From the NCBI GenBank assembly GCA_025363655.1, contig JANYDK010000025.1:1-64000 (forward strand): a DNA stretch of 64,000 bases. Reading direction: 5' to 3'. The notes under the pieces were generated by a model. The model was not told where the DNA came from, did no database searches, and saw only the letters and a program-made list of their open reading frames with translations. A program made the position numbers and the translations under genes. Origin of the DNA: Deltaproteobacteria bacterium. GTDB lineage: Bacteria; Myxococcota_A; Polyangia; Polyangiales; JADJMO01. Shown here one piece after another: positions 4,996-12,112 of the stretch (within the stretch, counting starts at the first letter, position 1; the number at the start of each line of letters is the position of its first letter).

Positions 4996-5316
4996 TCAGC
5001 GCGTTCGAGCCAAGTCAGCCCTGACCCGGCCCTCGAGGGCGACACGTAGTCGTGCGTGGATCTGCTCGGTGACCTTCCCCGCACGCATCGCCGCGGCGAC
5101 GCCGATCGCGAGGAGCACGGCTGCCACGAGAAAAACCGGGACCGTGAAGACGGGCGGCGGGATGATCGTCCAGTAGAGGATCCGTCGCGCGAGGTAGAGC
5201 CCATCGAAGAGCCCGAGCGCGAGCCCGGCCACGACGTAGCGCGCGCATCGATTCTTCGAGGCGCGATGGAGATCGACGAGCTCTTCGTCGGTGTGTCGTT
5301 CGAGATCGGTGCTCAT
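4996..5316 (-). CDS. Small two-helix membrane protein, unknown function
   Basis: A 106-residue protein with a polar, charged N-terminus (residues 1-26), two hydrophobic segments (about 27-45 and 54-77, the second around 'FTVPVFLVAAVLLAIG'), and an Arg-rich amphipathic tail (80-106). It is probably an inner-membrane protein with both termini on the same side. It is convergent with pepP, with only 15 bp between the stops. No family is recognised. Confidence 0.6.
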   Translation of the reverse strand: MSTDLERHTDEELVDLHRASKNRCARYVVAGLALGLFDGLYLARRILYWTIIPPPVFTVPVFLVAAVLLAIGVAAAMRAGKVTEQIHARLRVALEGRVRADLARTR

Positions 5317-5473: not shown

Positions 5474-6076
5474 TCAGCTCGCTGACAGCTCCGCCGCGAT
5501 CCGCTTGCGGAGCCGCAAGAGCCGCGTCTTCACCCGCGAGACGCCGAGGCCACGCGCGCGGCTGTACTCGACCACGCCCATCGGTCCGAGCACGCACTGC
5601 TCGAAGATGTCGAGGTCTTCCCCGCGCGAGCTCGCCAGCACTTTGCCGACGAGCGCCTGCGTCTCGGCGCCGATGAGCGCGTCCTCGGGATCGGGCTCCT
5701 CGGTCTCGACCTCCGGGGGGACGAGCATCGCTTCGAAGCGCGGTCCGACGTGGCGGGCGACGCGACGCACGTACATTCGGCAACAGTTGAGGAGGATGCT
5801 GAAGAGCCAGGTGGTGATCGCCGCGCGGTCCTCGAATCGATCGGCGTGGCAGGCCGCGAGGATCAGCGCCTCTTGCACGCACTCCTCGGCGTCGGCGTCG
5901 TTGCCGAGGAAGGCCCGCGCCTTGTCGTGCAGCCGACGGCGGAGGGCCGGATCGTCGATCGCGCGAAGCACGCGAGTTTTTCCGCTTCCGACGCTTCCGA
6001 CGCTGCGCCGACGCTCATGCGTCTCCGACACTTCGGAATCCGGTGAGTACTCACTCATTAAACGTTCGGTCAGCAT
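5474..6076 (-). CDS. ECF-type RNA polymerase sigma factor
   Basis: A 200-residue sigma-70-family factor. Region 2 lies at about residues 40-105 (ADAEECVQEALILAACHADRF and WLFSILLNCCRMYVRR). Region 4 is near the C-terminus (about 160-195; VVEYSRARGLGVSRVKTRLLRLRKR), with the DNA-contacting helix. The ATG at 6076 is chosen because GAGGAG lies about 8 nt upstream; the frame is open to 6199 but overlaps the end of tetR. No anti-sigma gene is adjacent. It lies 25 bp downstream of the TetR regulator on the same strand, probably in one operon. Codons 7-12 contain a palindrome almost identical to the one upstream of tetR. Confidence 0.85.
   Translation of the reverse strand: MLTERLMSEYSPDSEVSETHERRRSVGSVGSGKTRVLRAIDDPALRRRLHDKARAFLGNDADAEECVQEALILAACHADRFEDRAAITTWLFSILLNCCRMYVRRVARHVGPRFEAMLVPPEVETEEPDPEDALIGAETQALVGKVLASSRGEDLDIFEQCVLGPMGVVEYSRARGLGVSRVKTRLLRLRKRIAAELSAS
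6042..6059 (-). promoter_or_regulatory. Putative TetR operator copy inside the start of the sigma-factor gene
   Basis: On the minus strand this reads ATGAGTGAGTACTCAC, an inverted repeat with a 4-nt centre. It differs at one position from the 16-mer upstream of tetR at 6946-6961. It overlaps the first codons of the ECF sigma gene, where bound repressor could act as a roadblock or cover an internal promoter. That it is an operator is inferred from the match alone. Confidence 0.45.
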
Positions 6077-6101
6077 GGAAAGCTCCTCGCGTCGTCGCGA
6101 T

Positions 6102-6902
6102 TCAGCGCGAGCGTTTGGGATAGGGCGACGAGACGGGCACTTCAGGCGGCGACCGTCGCCTGGCAGCTGCCGGCAGCGTGTGCGCGGTGTGCGCGGCATG
6201 TGCGGCGTGCGCGGTGTGCGCGGTGTGCGCGGTGTGCGGGTTAGGCCGTGACTTCGACTCGAGCGGCTTGGTATTTCCTAGAGGCGTGAGCCCCTGGAGA
6301 AGTAGATGCACGAGCCCACGCACGAACGTGTCGCGCGGGAGAGGCAGCGGATCGACGTTGCCCATCGTCACCTCGAAGAACACGTACTGCCAGAGCGCAC
6401 CGGAGAAGGTACGGGCGACGATCTCCGGGTCGTGCCGCGAGATGCGGCCGAGGCGCATCTCGGCCTCGAGGTAGCCCGCGAACATTCGAATGCCGCGGAT
6501 GGCGTTGGGCGGCGGGCCACCACCGATGCGCGGCTGTTTTCCCGGCATGAACGGCCCGTTCGCCCCGTTCGAGTTCGCCCACACCATCATCATCTTGGGG
6601 ATGAGAATGAAGAACTTGTCGGTGAGGTGACGGCCGAGCTCGAGGAGCGTCTCTTCCACCGAAGCCTTACCGACGCGCGCGGCGAGGTCGATCGGGTCGG
6701 GCATGCCCTCTTCATCGTCGGGATCGCGCATGGCCGCGAGGAAGAGCTCTTCCTTGGAACGAAAGCGCTTGAAGAGCGTGCCCTCGGAAACGCCGGCGTG
6801 CTTGGCGATGTCGGCGGTGGTCGCGCGGATGCCCTGTTGGAGAAAAACCTCGCGAGCTGCAGCGAGCAGCTCCTCTTCTCGAATGTGGGCAGGGCGGGCC
6901 AT
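6102..6902 (-). CDS. TetR/AcrR-family transcriptional regulator
   Basis: A 266-residue protein. The N-terminal TetR HTH is at about residues 9-55 (REEELLAAAREVFLQQGIRA, then TTADIAKHAGVSEGTLFKRF and KEELFLAAM), and the ligand-binding helical domain follows to about residue 215. The ATG at 6902 places the HTH at the usual distance from the N-terminus; the GTG at 6935 is an alternative. The last 45 residues are unusual: a low-complexity His/Thr/Ala tract (HTAHTAHTAHAAHAAH) encoded by a GTGTGCGCG-type minisatellite, then an Arg/Pro-rich tail. It lies directly upstream of the ECF sigma gene. A perfect candidate operator lies about 44 bp upstream of its start, suggesting autoregulation. Confidence 0.88.
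   Translation of the reverse strand: MARPAHIREEELLAAAREVFLQQGIRATTADIAKHAGVSEGTLFKRFRSKEELFLAAMRDPDDEEGMPDPIDLAARVGKASVEETLLELGRHLTDKFFILIPKMMMVWANSNGANGPFMPGKQPRIGGGPPPNAIRGIRMFAGYLEAEMRLGRISRHDPEIVARTFSGALWQYVFFEVTMGNVDPLPLPRDTFVRGLVHLLLQGLTPLGNTKPLESKSRPNPHTAHTAHTAHAAHAAHTAHTLPAAARRRSPPEVPVSSPYPKRSR
6178..6240 (+). repeat. GC-rich 9-bp-type minisatellite in the tetR 3' end
   Basis: Degenerate tandem copies of GTGTGCGCG and GTGCGCGGC variants run for about 60 bp. They lie within the tetR coding region on the opposite strand and produce its His-Thr-Ala / His-Ala-Ala tract. The unit length is a multiple of three, so copy-number change keeps the frame. Confidence 0.7.
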
Positions 6903-6944
6903 GGCGGTTTCGGTTCTGAGCTCTAGGACACGCACGAGCGCATT

Positions 6945-6966
6945 TATGAGTGACTACTCACTTATA
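6945..6966. promoter_or_regulatory. Putative TetR operator upstream of tetR
   Basis: This is an inverted repeat: TATGAGTGA and TCACTTATA, 9-bp arms with one mismatch, separated by CTAC. It lies 43-64 bp upstream of the tetR start in the divergent region shared with the lipoprotein gene at 7068. Size and symmetry are typical of TetR-family operators. The core is repeated at 6042-6059. Confidence 0.6.
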
Positions 6967-7067
6967 CTTCCCAGACCCGATTCGTCAAGTCGGGCGGTGA
7001 TCGGGAGGGAGTCCCAAGGGAGTCCGAAGGGCTGAATGGCCAACCAGGCCAAGACACCAGACTTCGC

Positions 7068-7874
7068 GTGAATCGTTGGTGCATCGTGTTCGCCAGCGCG
7101 GTGCAGCTCTGCGTGCTCGGGTGCGGCTCGCAGATCAAGCCGCACGACCGATCGACGTCGCCGCTCGGTGCGGTCTGGGAGAACCGGAAGCCGGGCGTGG
7201 CCACCGTCGTCGTCGAGCGTGCCGATCAAGGGCTCACCGGCATCCTCGCGGTCGAGGCCGTCGTCGATGCGTCGACGCAAAAAGTCTTCGGGGGGACGGC
7301 GCAGCAGTTCGACGAGCTCGCCGATGGTGAGCACCTCCTCCTCGCGCGCGTGACCTACACGTTGCCGGGAAGCACGACCGCCGTCCACGTCGCCAGCCAC
7401 TTTCATTTCAGCACCGAGAAAGAGTGTCGCACCGAGCTGCACGTGAGCGTGACCACGACGAGCGCGGGCGCGCCGACACCGCAGTTCTCCGAGAAGCTCT
7501 CGTGCGAGACGCCGTGGGCGGTGATGCTCACGATCCCGACGCCGCGCGACCTTCCGACGCCCGAGGGGCTCGACGAGGCCGGGGCGATTCGCACGTGGAT
7601 TGGGGCCTGTGTCGAGCTGGCGAGCGACGCCAAGCGCTATGTGCAGCTCGCGCTCGACGGGGCGCGATCCCATAAAGACATAATGCTCTTGGTGGCGCTG
7701 AAAGAGAAGAAGGACCGCCTCGACGTCCTCGTCGACCTGCTCGGCGAGAAGGAAGTGCCGGCGACCGAGGGTGACCTCGACGCTCTCCACAAGTCGCTGA
7801 CGGTCGCACGCGCGATGTGCGCGAGCGTGCGCCAGGTGCAGCTCGAAGCGCGCACGTCGGTCGCATACGACTGA
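7068..7874 (+). CDS. Putative lipoprotein, unknown function
   Basis: A 268-residue protein from a GTG start. It has a type II signal peptide with a lipobox at Cys19 (LCVLGC). The mature part begins with a mixed alpha/beta domain of strands (VATVVVE, LLLARVTYTLP, ELHVSVTT), and ends with an amphipathic helical region (about 190-268; 'LALDGARSHKDIMLLVALKEKKDRLDVL' pattern, shown in pieces only). Two mature-domain Cys pairs may form disulfides. It is divergent from tetR across a 165-bp gap containing the operator, so TetR may also control it. No family is recognised. Confidence 0.7.
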   Translation: MNRWCIVFASAVQLCVLGCGSQIKPHDRSTSPLGAVWENRKPGVATVVVERADQGLTGILAVEAVVDASTQKVFGGTAQQFDELADGEHLLLARVTYTLPGSTTAVHVASHFHFSTEKECRTELHVSVTTTSAGAPTPQFSEKLSCETPWAVMLTIPTPRDLPTPEGLDEAGAIRTWIGACVELASDAKRYVQLALDGARSHKDIMLLVALKEKKDRLDVLVDLLGEKEVPATEGDLDALHKSLTVARAMCASVRQVQLEARTSVAYD

Positions 7875-8118: not shown

Positions 8119-9903
8119 TCAACCTGCTCCTTGCGTCGCCATGGGACCGGACTCGTCACCGATACGTCTACCAGCAGGCTTGCCGGTGAGCTCGGCGCGC
8201 ACTCGCTCACGTGCGCGATCGAGCTGGTCGGGCGTAGCGCCGAAGCGCACGAGGAGGTGTTCGGCCATCGCCATCGCGACTTCTCCTTCGGCTGCGACCA
8301 CGATGTCGGCTCCCGCGGCGGTGACCGCTTCGAGCTCCGAGAGATAGGTCGTACGCGCGAGGACGGGAAGCCTCGGGCGCAGCTCCTTGGCGACGCGGAT
8401 GACGGCGTCGCTCGGACCGGAGGCGGCGAAGACGAGGCCGACCGCGTGCTCGATGCCGGCGCGGACGAGGATCTCCCGCTGCGTCGCGTCTCCGTGGAGC
8501 GCGTGCGTGCCCTCACCGAGGAGACGCCGCACGGTCAGGTGATTGAGATCGATGACGAACGGCTCGAGCCCATTGTCGCGAAGGAGCCCCACGAGCGTGC
8601 GACCGACCGGCCCGTGGCCGATGACGATCACGCGGTTTCCCGAGATGTCGGACGACGCGATGGACTCGAGGGAGAGCGACTGCTTCGCGCCTGTTGCGCC
8701 TGTTGCGCCTGTCACGCCTGCCGCGTGTTGACCGAACCGCTCGTAGAGCGTCGTCGCGAACGGGCTGGCGATGATCGTGACGAGCGAGACGCAGACGACG
8801 ACCTGCCCGGCGCGCGGCGGAAGGAGCCCGAGCTCGATGCCGAGGGTGGCGAGGATGAAAGAGAACTCACCGATCTGCGCGAGAGCTCCGGCCGAAATCG
8901 CGATCGCGCGCGGCGCCCCGCCGAAGAGGCGACCGGAGACGAGGATGGCCACCGGCGTGACGACGAGCACGACGAGGACCCCGGCGACGACGATCGGCAG
9001 CTGCGGGAGCACCTGGCGTGGATCGAGCAGCATGCCGGTGGAGACGAAGAAGAGGACCGCGAAGGAGTCGCGCATCGGGAGCGCTTCGGAGGCGGCGCGC
9101 GCGCTGAACTCGGAGCGTCCGACGACCAGCCCTGCGAGGAAGGCGCCGAGCGCCATCGAAGCGCCGAAGAGGAGCGACGAACCGACCGCGATGCCGAGCG
9201 CCAGCGCCAGCACACTGAGCGTGAAGAGCTCACGTGAACGCAGCCGCGCGACGAAGCCGAGGAGGCGCGGGATGAGCTTGCGCCCAGCGACGAGCGTGAA
9301 GACGACGAGCGCGGCCAGCTTGGCGAGCGCGAGGACGACGGTGACGAGCTTCTCTTCGACGCTCGGCACATGCCCGTCGTTTCCGCCGGCGAACATCGGA
9401 AGAAACACGAGCACGAGCACCGCGAGCAGATCGCCGACGACCAGATAGCCGACCGCCGTGTGACCAGCCGCGGTCGGCAACGCGCCGCGCTCGCCGAGCG
9501 TGCGGAGGGCGACGACGGTGCTCGCGAGCGCGAGACAGAGGCCGAAGATCAGCGAGCCGGCGAGACCGAAGCCGGCCCAGTGTCCGACGAGGGCACCGAC
9601 GAGCGTCGAGATCGCCACCTGCGCGATCGCGCTCGGCACGACGACGCGGCGCACCGAGAGAACCTGTTCGACGTGGAACTCCAACCCGACCCCGAACATC
9701 AGGAGAATTACGCCGATTTCGGCGAATTGGCCGGCGATCGCACCGTGGGCGACGAACCCTGGCGTAAAGGGCCCGACGAGGAGCCCGGCGAGGAGATATC
9801 CGACCACGGGGGAGAGGCGGAGCGCGCGCGCCCCGATGCCGAGGGCGAGCGCGCTGCCGAGCCCGAAGGTGAGCGTGAGGATGACGTCGAGCTGGTGCGT
9901 CAT
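8119..9903 (-). CDS. Kef/YbaL-type cation:proton antiporter with RCK (TrkA-N) domain
   Basis: A 594-residue CPA2-family transporter. An N-terminal domain of about 12 transmembrane helices (residues 5-385) includes the family signatures 'GYLLAGLLVGP' and 'ALASTVVALRTLGERG'. A cytoplasmic Rossmann RCK domain follows (from 'RVIVIGHGPVGRTLV', a GxGxxG nucleotide-binding loop), then a further helical region. It probably exchanges K+ or Na+ for H+ under control of a nucleotide bound to the RCK domain. The pattern is closer to YbaL/RosB than to glutathione-gated KefB/C, but that distinction is tentative. Just before the RCK domain, the linker contains Gly-Ala-Thr triplets encoded by a 9-bp repeat (8690-8718). 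It lies downstream of the membrane-protein gene at 9914, 10 bp away. Confidence 0.9.
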   Translation of the reverse strand: MTHQLDVILTLTFGLGSALALGIGARALRLSPVVGYLLAGLLVGPFTPGFVAHGAIAGQFAEIGVILLMFGVGLEFHVEQVLSVRRVVVPSAIAQVAISTLVGALVGHWAGFGLAGSLIFGLCLALASTVVALRTLGERGALPTAAGHTAVGYLVVGDLLAVLVLVFLPMFAGGNDGHVPSVEEKLVTVVLALAKLAALVVFTLVAGRKLIPRLLGFVARLRSRELFTLSVLALALGIAVGSSLLFGASMALGAFLAGLVVGRSEFSARAASEALPMRDSFAVLFFVSTGMLLDPRQVLPQLPIVVAGVLVVLVVTPVAILVSGRLFGGAPRAIAISAGALAQIGEFSFILATLGIELGLLPPRAGQVVVCVSLVTIIASPFATTLYERFGQHAAGVTGATGATGAKQSLSLESIASSDISGNRVIVIGHGPVGRTLVGLLRDNGLEPFVIDLNHLTVRRLLGEGTHALHGDATQREILVRAGIEHAVGLVFAASGPSDAVIRVAKELRPRLPVLARTTYLSELEAVTAAGADIVVAAEGEVAMAMAEHLLVRFGATPDQLDRARERVRAELTGKPAGRRIGDESGPMATQGAG

Positions 9904-9913
9904 GGGTCACTGC

Positions 9914-10285
9914 TCAATCGAGCCGAGGGAGGCGGGCGGGCGTCGAAGTTTCGTCGGTGGCCGCGTTCGCGATCACGATGGCCGTGAGGTCACGCGGAGT
10001 GCCGGCTTCGAGGAGCAGTCGCCAGCCAGTTGCCAGCGAGGCGAGCGCGGCCACGGAGAGGATTGCGCCCGCGAGGGGCCGCGGCGTGGCGTCGGACGCG
10101 AGGAACGCGCAGAGCGCGAGGGTCGAGAAGAAGAGACCGACGATGATCGCGGCGGTCCCGAGGGAAGAGCGTAGGTTCACGCGCAACTCCGTCTTGGGAG
10201 AGAAGGTCAGAGGACTGGCGAGGTCGGCACGCAGCGCGCGCACGACGGGTGTCGTCACCGCAGCGAAGAGATCGCATGCGGACAC
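9914..10285 (-). CDS. Small membrane protein, unknown function
   Basis: A 123-residue protein with a soluble N-terminus of about 40 residues, two adjacent hydrophobic helices (about 43-63, 'AAIIVGLFFSTLALCAFL', and 70-90), and a polar tail. It lies 10 bp upstream of the antiporter gene on the same strand and may be a co-transcribed accessory. No family is recognised. Confidence 0.55.
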   Translation of the reverse strand: MSACDLFAAVTTPVVRALRADLASPLTFSPKTELRVNLRSSLGTAAIIVGLFFSTLALCAFLASDATPRPLAGAILSVAALASLATGWRLLLEAGTPRDLTAIVIANAATDETSTPARLPRLD

Positions 10286-10861: not shown

Positions 10862-12112
10862 ATGCGATCAACAGTCACGTTTCGCGCGCTCATCGCCTCA
10901 CTCGCCTCGCTCGCCTCACTCGTCGTCTCTTGCAGCTCTTCGAGTAACCCGGCCGCGAGCGCCGACAGCGGCATCGCGAGTGATGTCGCGAGTGATGTCG
11001 CGAATGATGGTGGCGCAGACACGCTCGACCCGCCGAAGACGGTGACCCCTGGGAGCTCGATCTACGAGCACGCCGGACCTGCGCCGGTCGGACACACGAC
11101 GTTCTCGCTGACCGACGCTGCGCGCAGTCGCACGCTTCGGGTCGAGGTTTGGTACCCCGCCGACGAATCGGCGCGCGCGGCGGCGACCACCGGCACCGCG
11201 TTGGAAGATCTCGAGCCCGCCGGGGCCAACCACGACGCGTTGAAGAAGCTCGTCGATGCTGCTCCCGCGACCTGCACGCGCAAACGCGTCGGCTCGGCCG
11301 CCGATGCCAAGCCCGCGGGCAGCGCACCCTTCCCCGTCGTCGTCTTTTCGCACTGTCACGACTGCATGCGCTTCTCGGCTGCGGCCATCGCCGAGCGCCT
11401 CGCCAGCCATGGCTTCGCCGTCATCGCCGCCGATCACACCGGCAACACACTTTACGATCGCCTCGCGGGCAAAGAGCTCCCCCTCGACGCCACCACGCTC
11501 GGCCTCCGCGTCGCCGACGTGCGCTTCGTGCTCGACAGCGTGCTCGACGGCTCGTCGACGGCGCCGACGGCGATTCCTGCGACGCTCAAAGGCCGATTCG
11601 ACGCCGCCAAGGTCGGCATGATGGGCCACAGCTTCGGCTCGGTGACGACCGGCGCGGTGCTCGCCAAGGACGCACGCTTCAAGGCCGGCTTCGCCATCGC
11701 CGCGCCCTTCGACTTCCTCGGCGACACCAAGCTCACCGACATCAAGGTGCCGACGTTCTTCCTCGTCGCGCAGGAAGACAACTCGATCAGCGAGATCGGC
11801 AACAACCTCATCCGCAACGACTTCAAGACCATCAGCGCGCCTGATTTCCTCGTCGAAATCGTCGATGCGGGGCATTGGAGCTTCTCCGACATCTGCGGCC
11901 TCGACACCGCGTTCATGCCCGGCTGCGGCCGCGCCCAACGTCAGACGGACTCTGCCTACGACCTCAACTACCTCGACAACGAAGGAGCGCGCGGAGTCGC
12001 CTCGTCGTATGCGGCAGCATTTTTTCTCGGCGAGCTCATGGGCGACGCGGCGGGGCTGACGTTCGCGAAGACGGCACACCCCGAGGGGATTGCGGTGTTG
12101 GGGAAGAAGTAA
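10862..12112 (+). CDS. Lipoprotein alpha/beta-hydrolase (PAF-acetylhydrolase/dienelactone hydrolase-like)
   Basis: A 416-residue protein. A type II signal peptide with lipobox Cys24 (SLVVSC) is followed by a Ser/Asp/Ala/Val linker built on SDVASDVAND repeats. The hydrolase domain (about 60-415) has the strand pattern 'FPVVVFSHCHDC', which would form the oxyanion hole. The nucleophile elbow is GHSFG with Ser257, and the likely acid and base are Asp in 'VAQEDNS' and His in 'DAGHWSF'. It probably hydrolyses esters or short-chain lipids at the cell surface. The ATG at 10862 is chosen because the signal peptide follows directly. The hydrophobic core of the signal is itself a repeat (LASLASLASL). 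Confidence 0.85.
   Translation: MRSTVTFRALIASLASLASLVVSCSSSSNPAASADSGIASDVASDVANDGGADTLDPPKTVTPGSSIYEHAGPAPVGHTTFSLTDAARSRTLRVEVWYPADESARAAATTGTALEDLEPAGANHDALKKLVDAAPATCTRKRVGSAADAKPAGSAPFPVVVFSHCHDCMRFSAAAIAERLASHGFAVIAADHTGNTLYDRLAGKELPLDATTLGLRVADVRFVLDSVLDGSSTAPTAIPATLKGRFDAAKVGMMGHSFGSVTTGAVLAKDARFKAGFAIAAPFDFLGDTKLTDIKVPTFFLVAQEDNSISEIGNNLIRNDFKTISAPDFLVEIVDAGHWSFSDICGLDTAFMPGCGRAQRQTDSAYDLNYLDNEGARGVASSYAAAFFLGELMGDAAGLTFAKTAHPEGIAVLGKK
10971..11006 (+). repeat. 12-bp tandem repeat in a lipoprotein linker
   Basis: About three copies of a GTCGCGAGTGAT unit encode Val-Ala-Ser-Asp repeats just after the lipidated cysteine of the hydrolase lipoprotein. The unit length preserves frame. 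Confidence 0.65.

Follow-up and report, generated by a model that had tools for sequence, protein, structure and literature searches.

Two copies of one predicted TetR operator appear to tie a TetR-family regulator to the ECF-type sigma factor encoded directly behind it in the genome of a Deltaproteobacteria bacterium (GCA_025363655.1). One copy, O1, overlaps the putative tetR promoter, and the other, O2, spans the start of the sigma factor gene. Comparison with related loci marks O2 as a conserved, predicted start-codon operator, and the output of the TetR protein appears to have been rewired from an export pump to a sigma factor. The analysis covered positions 1-64,000 of contig JANYDK010000025.1 (the window, 64 kb) and, for genome-wide counts, the complete draft assembly of 9,035,041 bp in 150 contigs.

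The tetR gene begins with the ATG at 6902 on the minus strand and is followed in the same direction by the sigma factor gene, with 25 bp between the two (Table 1). An earlier note made from the letters of this DNA had read these genes as tetR and an ECF sigma factor gene, and both assignments are borne out by Pfam and by the sigma70-ECF profile (TIGR02937), which matches the sigma protein with 48.7 bits over residues 47-196 and thus exceeds its cut-off of 42.9. Sigma region 4 has no separate Pfam match at E 0.1, and the span of the TIGR02937 match takes that region in. Translation of the sigma factor may start at 6076, preceded by a likely ribosome-binding site, or at 6058 inside O2, and O2 is coding in either case. 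No anti-sigma gene was recognized adjoining the sigma gene; the next gene downstream encodes a putative membrane protein, which may be a partner of the sigma factor or one of its targets. The recognition-helix region of the TetR protein is well conserved among the 71 relatives introduced below (E40 in 69, F44 in 70, R46 in 68, and K50 in 69 of them). With its 266 residues, the protein is longer than most relatives, which end at ca. 200-230 aa, and the 3' end of the gene contains a nine-base tandem repeat, GTGTGCGCG (6.8 copies, 6178-6238), that yields an HTA-repeat tail.

Table 1. Features of the tetR-sigma locus, with positions in the window.
Feature	Position	Strand	Basis
tetR, TetR-family regulator, 266 aa	6102..6902	-	PF00440 TetR_N, 2.6e-17, residues 12-57
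ECF-type sigma factor gene, 200 aa	5474..6076	-	PF04542 Sigma70_r2, 9.6e-12; TIGR02937
O1, predicted TetR operator, 20 bp, overlaps tetR promoter	6946..6965	.	top motif site in window, 30.8 bits
O2, second predicted operator, spans start of sigma gene	6039..6058	.	second-ranked separate motif site of window
Putative tetR -35 box TTGACG	6983..6988	-	read by eye
Putative tetR -10 box TATAAG, overlaps O1, 16-nt spacer	6961..6966	-	read by eye
GAGGAG, likely ribosome-binding site for sigma start 6076	6083..6088	-	read from sequence, 6-nt spacing
Alternative sigma start: in-frame ATG formed by the first bases of O2 (MSEYSP)	6056..6058	-	usable start at same operator base in 17 of 28 relatives
Putative membrane protein gene, 106 aa, two-helix-like, downstream of sigma	4996-5316		FtsX at E 0.04, weak and short of the cut-off

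The 16-mer of O1, ATGAGTGACTACTCAC, occupies 6946-6961 on the plus strand as part of an inverted repeat in which 18 of 20 positions are symmetrical, 43 bp before the tetR start. Its counterpart in O2, ATGAGTGAGTACTCAC, lies on the minus strand at 6043-6058, 43 bp past the tetR stop, and would form sigma codons 7-12 if translation starts at 6076. The two differ at one position in 16, as the earlier note had observed, though its interval for the second copy (6042-6059) was one base too wide on each side. O2 retains a perfect 12-bp core, GTGAGTACTCAC, at 6043-6054, and its outer right arm is degenerate. The putative tetR promoter, TTGACG-N16-TATAAG, is unlisted by the automatic promoter scan because that scan demands a T at the last -10 position.

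With up to three mismatches allowed, the 16-mer has four matches in the window (two of which are O1 counted on both strands) against 0.28 expected, and none of 100 shuffled sequences reached four. The earlier note had suggested looking for further copies in the genome, and the core pattern TGAGTGANTANTCAC turned up at exactly two places, O1 and O2, with none for a reversed control pattern; likewise, no place besides these two matches the 20-mer with three or fewer mismatches. A genome search for further regulon sites with two mismatches gave seven places compared to four for the reversed control, which is no evidence for a wider regulon, and the best-scoring genome site other than O1 and O2 (15.8 bits) lies within a 507-aa reading frame.

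The operator motif itself was learned from relatives. When 144 genomes of the order were searched by protein, 37 related TetR proteins besides our own were obtained from 36 other genomes (set 1), and a class-level search of 317 genomes added 34 further loci among the matches listed (set 2). Palindromic expectation maximization (EM) used the 37 upstream regions of set 1 alone, with our own genome excluded, after which the motif was frozen and applied at a threshold of 12 bits. By this motif, O1 and O2 are the two best separate sites of the window, in that order; O2 reaches 15.2 bits when the register is moved by 4 bases and 12.8 bits in the conserved register. The next separate site reaches 9.6 bits at 9902-9921, at the start of a transporter gene (8119-9903), and was taken as a chance match since a 64-kb stretch is expected to contain 1.17 sites of this strength.

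Counterparts of O1 are found upstream of tetR at 31 of the 37 loci of set 1 and at 26 of the 34 loci of set 2, which had no part in the training (57/71 in total). At 19 and 9 loci, respectively (28/71), a second site follows tetR within 250 bp, and none reaches the threshold at the other 43; all of these counts overstate independence because many related loci form close, in some cases near-identical, pairs. Outside the two zones, the motif matches 7 times in 458,173 bases of set 1 (own locus counted in) and 3 times in 329,187 bases of set 2. Few second sites are as weak as O2, given that those of relatives score between 12.8 and 27.6 bits. At three loci (L070, L071, and L073), tetR is followed by second operators in tandem, two or three in number, several of which contain in-frame copies of MSKRSH or MSKPSH. 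The predicted binding of TetR to O1 and O2 is strongly supported by this comparative evidence, and the proposal of the earlier note that TetR controls its own promoter gains support from the position of O1 and its recurrence.

The second sites of relatives share a further property, i.e., their placement on the start of the next gene. Of the 28 relatives with a second operator, 23 have a usable in-frame start codon inside it, whereas 6.3 would be expected from other positions in the same stretches, and 17 of the 28 have one at operator base 1 compared to 0.39 expected (own locus excluded from both counts). When our own locus is included, 21 of 29 second operators share their frame relative to the next gene, mostly with ATG or TTG at base 1. 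The proteins starting there in relatives begin with MSERSRI, MSMRSLI, LSMQSLI, MSVRSTI, MREYSPI, MSKRSHI, MSNDSLT, or LSKRSII, and the corresponding start here would give MSEYSP. In several cases with a different frame, a GTG or TTG at operator base 5 or 9 can serve as start and the palindrome is kept nevertheless, which argues for a constraint at the level of DNA. The sequence TTGAC occurs in the 40 nt upstream of 39 of 58 O1 sites (own included) and of none of the 29 second sites, compared to 207 of 14,400 random windows. Without such a -35 element, the second site looks like an internal operator rather than a promoter operator. The earlier note had placed the control of the sigma gene at an intragenic site; the recurrence of a second site behind tetR agrees with such control, but the word intragenic misses the start-codon position.

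What follows the second operator differs between this locus and its relatives. Pfam analysis of ten proteins from four relatives identified an outer-membrane efflux protein, FtsX/MacB permease, ABC ATPase, HlyD, and AcrB. Homologues of these export genes lie downstream on the same strand in 56 of 71 relatives (within up to 7 kb, with little sequence available at some of the remaining loci); among the 28 relatives that carry a second site, 25 have them. The same two sites thus precede export genes of MacAB type or RND type in relatives. At our locus, none was found in the 6.1 kb downstream of tetR, and a search for relocated export genes with an FtsX query (L064) gave a single match in the genome (28%, E 5.4e-6). 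Conversely, none of the 71 related tetR loci carries the tetR-sigma pair, which is known from one genome; the one weak sigma match among them (L109, E 7e-5, 11024-11464) is several kb away from its tetR. The simplest history would be that the sigma gene took the place of export genes behind the operator; the reverse order is less likely, the export arrangement being by far the more frequent one.

We consider it fairly probable that tetR and the sigma gene form an operon read from O1, that TetR blocks O1 and O2 until a ligand releases it, and that the sigma gene replaced export genes within an inherited two-site arrangement. Both genes would be co-transcribed from a single promoter at O1, where a TetR dimer would cover the -10 box and the start site and thereby repress its own operon. 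On O2, TetR would act as a second block on the sigma gene, most likely as a roadblock that halts elongation of any transcripts getting past O1. Both sites would be freed, and the sigma factor made, in the presence of a small molecule that probably resembles what relatives export; the link to an effector made in the earlier note would fit this step.

A roadblock, a second promoter, and looping at O2 would look alike in sequence, and the roadblock is the most likely of the three. Were O2 to govern a second promoter immediately before the sigma gene, within the end of tetR, then O1 and O2 would both be ordinary promoter operators. The sigma gene does have a good ribosome-binding site of its own, and myxobacterial promoters frequently deviate from consensus. 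However, the lack of a TTGAC upstream of second sites speaks against this explanation, as does the automatic scan, which, demanding the final -10 T, found no sigma-70-like promoter between 5950 and 7150, and we regard it as rather doubtful.

O2 could also be a relic, with a sigma gene that landed behind an old start-codon operator, export genes that were lost, a TetR that acts there weakly or not at all, and control of the sigma gene through read-through from O1. The loss of outer bases in the right arm and the low score of O2 speak for such a relic. However, its 16-mer core still agrees with O1 at 15 of 16 positions even though the N-terminus of the sigma factor is under no evident protein constraint there (the sigma paralogues differ across the stretch that overlaps O2), and we hold this explanation to be unlikely. 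It is very improbable that O2 works in RNA as a hairpin masking the start codon: the palindrome could pair, but we rejected this candidate on its folding z-score of 0.75, with 155 of 200 shuffled sequences folding equally well and no stable fold at O2, and the same motif is present at the tetR promoter. Least likely is a chance origin of the second copy: simulated 64-kb sequences do contain 0.26 sites per window at or above the score of O2 (12.75), but only ca. 0.001 would be expected in the 280-bp stretch after tetR in which the related loci lead one to expect a site, and the core pattern occurs nowhere else in 9 Mb.

Two paralogues of the sigma factor are encoded in this genome, with 63% and 56% identity across the aligned portion. 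Among 306 class genomes, the clade of this sigma factor was found in the genome studied here (these three copies), in two others of the same family, and in one that is more distant. A scan of genome contigs with TetR gave no matches, and one with the sigma alignment gave distant sigma factors only, one of them from a genome of the same family. The 63% paralogue (L077, 6970-7593; own genome, G000:C116:18000-33000) is divergent from the gene for a TetR protein of another subfamily, TetR_C_11, and the two form a second candidate TetR-ECF pair (6082-7593). Two copies of TCGCAAC-N5-GTTGCNA lie between them (6785-6803 and 6830-6848) and nowhere else in the 9-Mb genome. Taken together with the main locus, two of the three sigma paralogues thus appear to be wired to unrelated TetR proteins; around the third (L078), no TetR was noticed among surrounding reading frames of at least 150 aa. 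L077 also has two copies of the palindrome GGAATGAATATTCACTCC (9165-9184 and 9934-9953), each preceded by TTGACG, of which the first includes the ATG that starts a third TetR-type gene (MNIHST) and would be another start-codon operator in this genome. In two genomes of the same family (L135 and L136), sigma homologues with 33-35% identity lie beside a histidine kinase gene (Pfam on L135) rather than a TetR gene and also adjoin a gene whose product looks like a LytTR response regulator.

Among TetR-family repressors, those of the MexZ-mexXY, AcrR, and MtrR type control export operons. The locus described here has in common with them the TetR protein, a palindromic 20-bp operator, predicted autoregulation, and, in relatives, the neighboring export operon. 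It differs in that the predicted output is a sigma factor, with a second operator across its start codon, and export genes next to the operator are absent from our locus. A second operator downstream of the promoter, within the early part of the gene under control, is also known from the lac system, where O2 lies inside lacZ. However, LacI is a tetramer that loops DNA, whereas looping by TetR between O1 and O2, ca. 900 bp apart, would be hypothetical.

MexZ also figures as a TetR-type repressor of an export operon in PMC9736018. In the same paper, the TetR-type LuxR of Vibrio alginolyticus is described as having sites that may lie on start codons or fall inside reading frames. LuxR is a global quorum-sensing regulator of ca. 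280 genes, in contrast to the two sites at one locus seen here (PMC9736018). For the sigma factor group ECF203, which is among the transcriptionally controlled ECF sigma factors, PMC8999054 proposes control by neighboring TetR repressors, worded as "possibly", from conserved gene neighborhood. Like our locus, ECF203 has an ECF sigma gene beside a TetR gene and no recognized anti-sigma gene, but the TetR link there is based on gene neighborhood, while matching operators are seen here (PMC8999054). Our literature search found no description of this operator or arrangement, and six 14- or 15-letter forms of the operator had no occurrence in it. TetR-controlled ECF factors as such have therefore been proposed earlier, and what is new is the operator arrangement, not the kind.

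We would give an even chance to a broader reading in which a two-operator cassette is found across the Polyangia, with a second operator that provides the start and first codons (MSxxS) of its target, has no -35 element of its own, is portable, and was re-used here for an ECF sigma factor instead of a pump. With an operator that recurs at related loci and also supplies the first codons of its target, rewiring of the output is easy to imagine because any gene joined behind it would come under control. The locus would offer a concrete case of a one-component sensor placed before an ECF sigma factor, a link called possible for ECF203 in PMC8999054 on the basis of conserved neighborhoods. If the broader reading is true, the ligand of a drug-sensing repressor would open a whole regulon.
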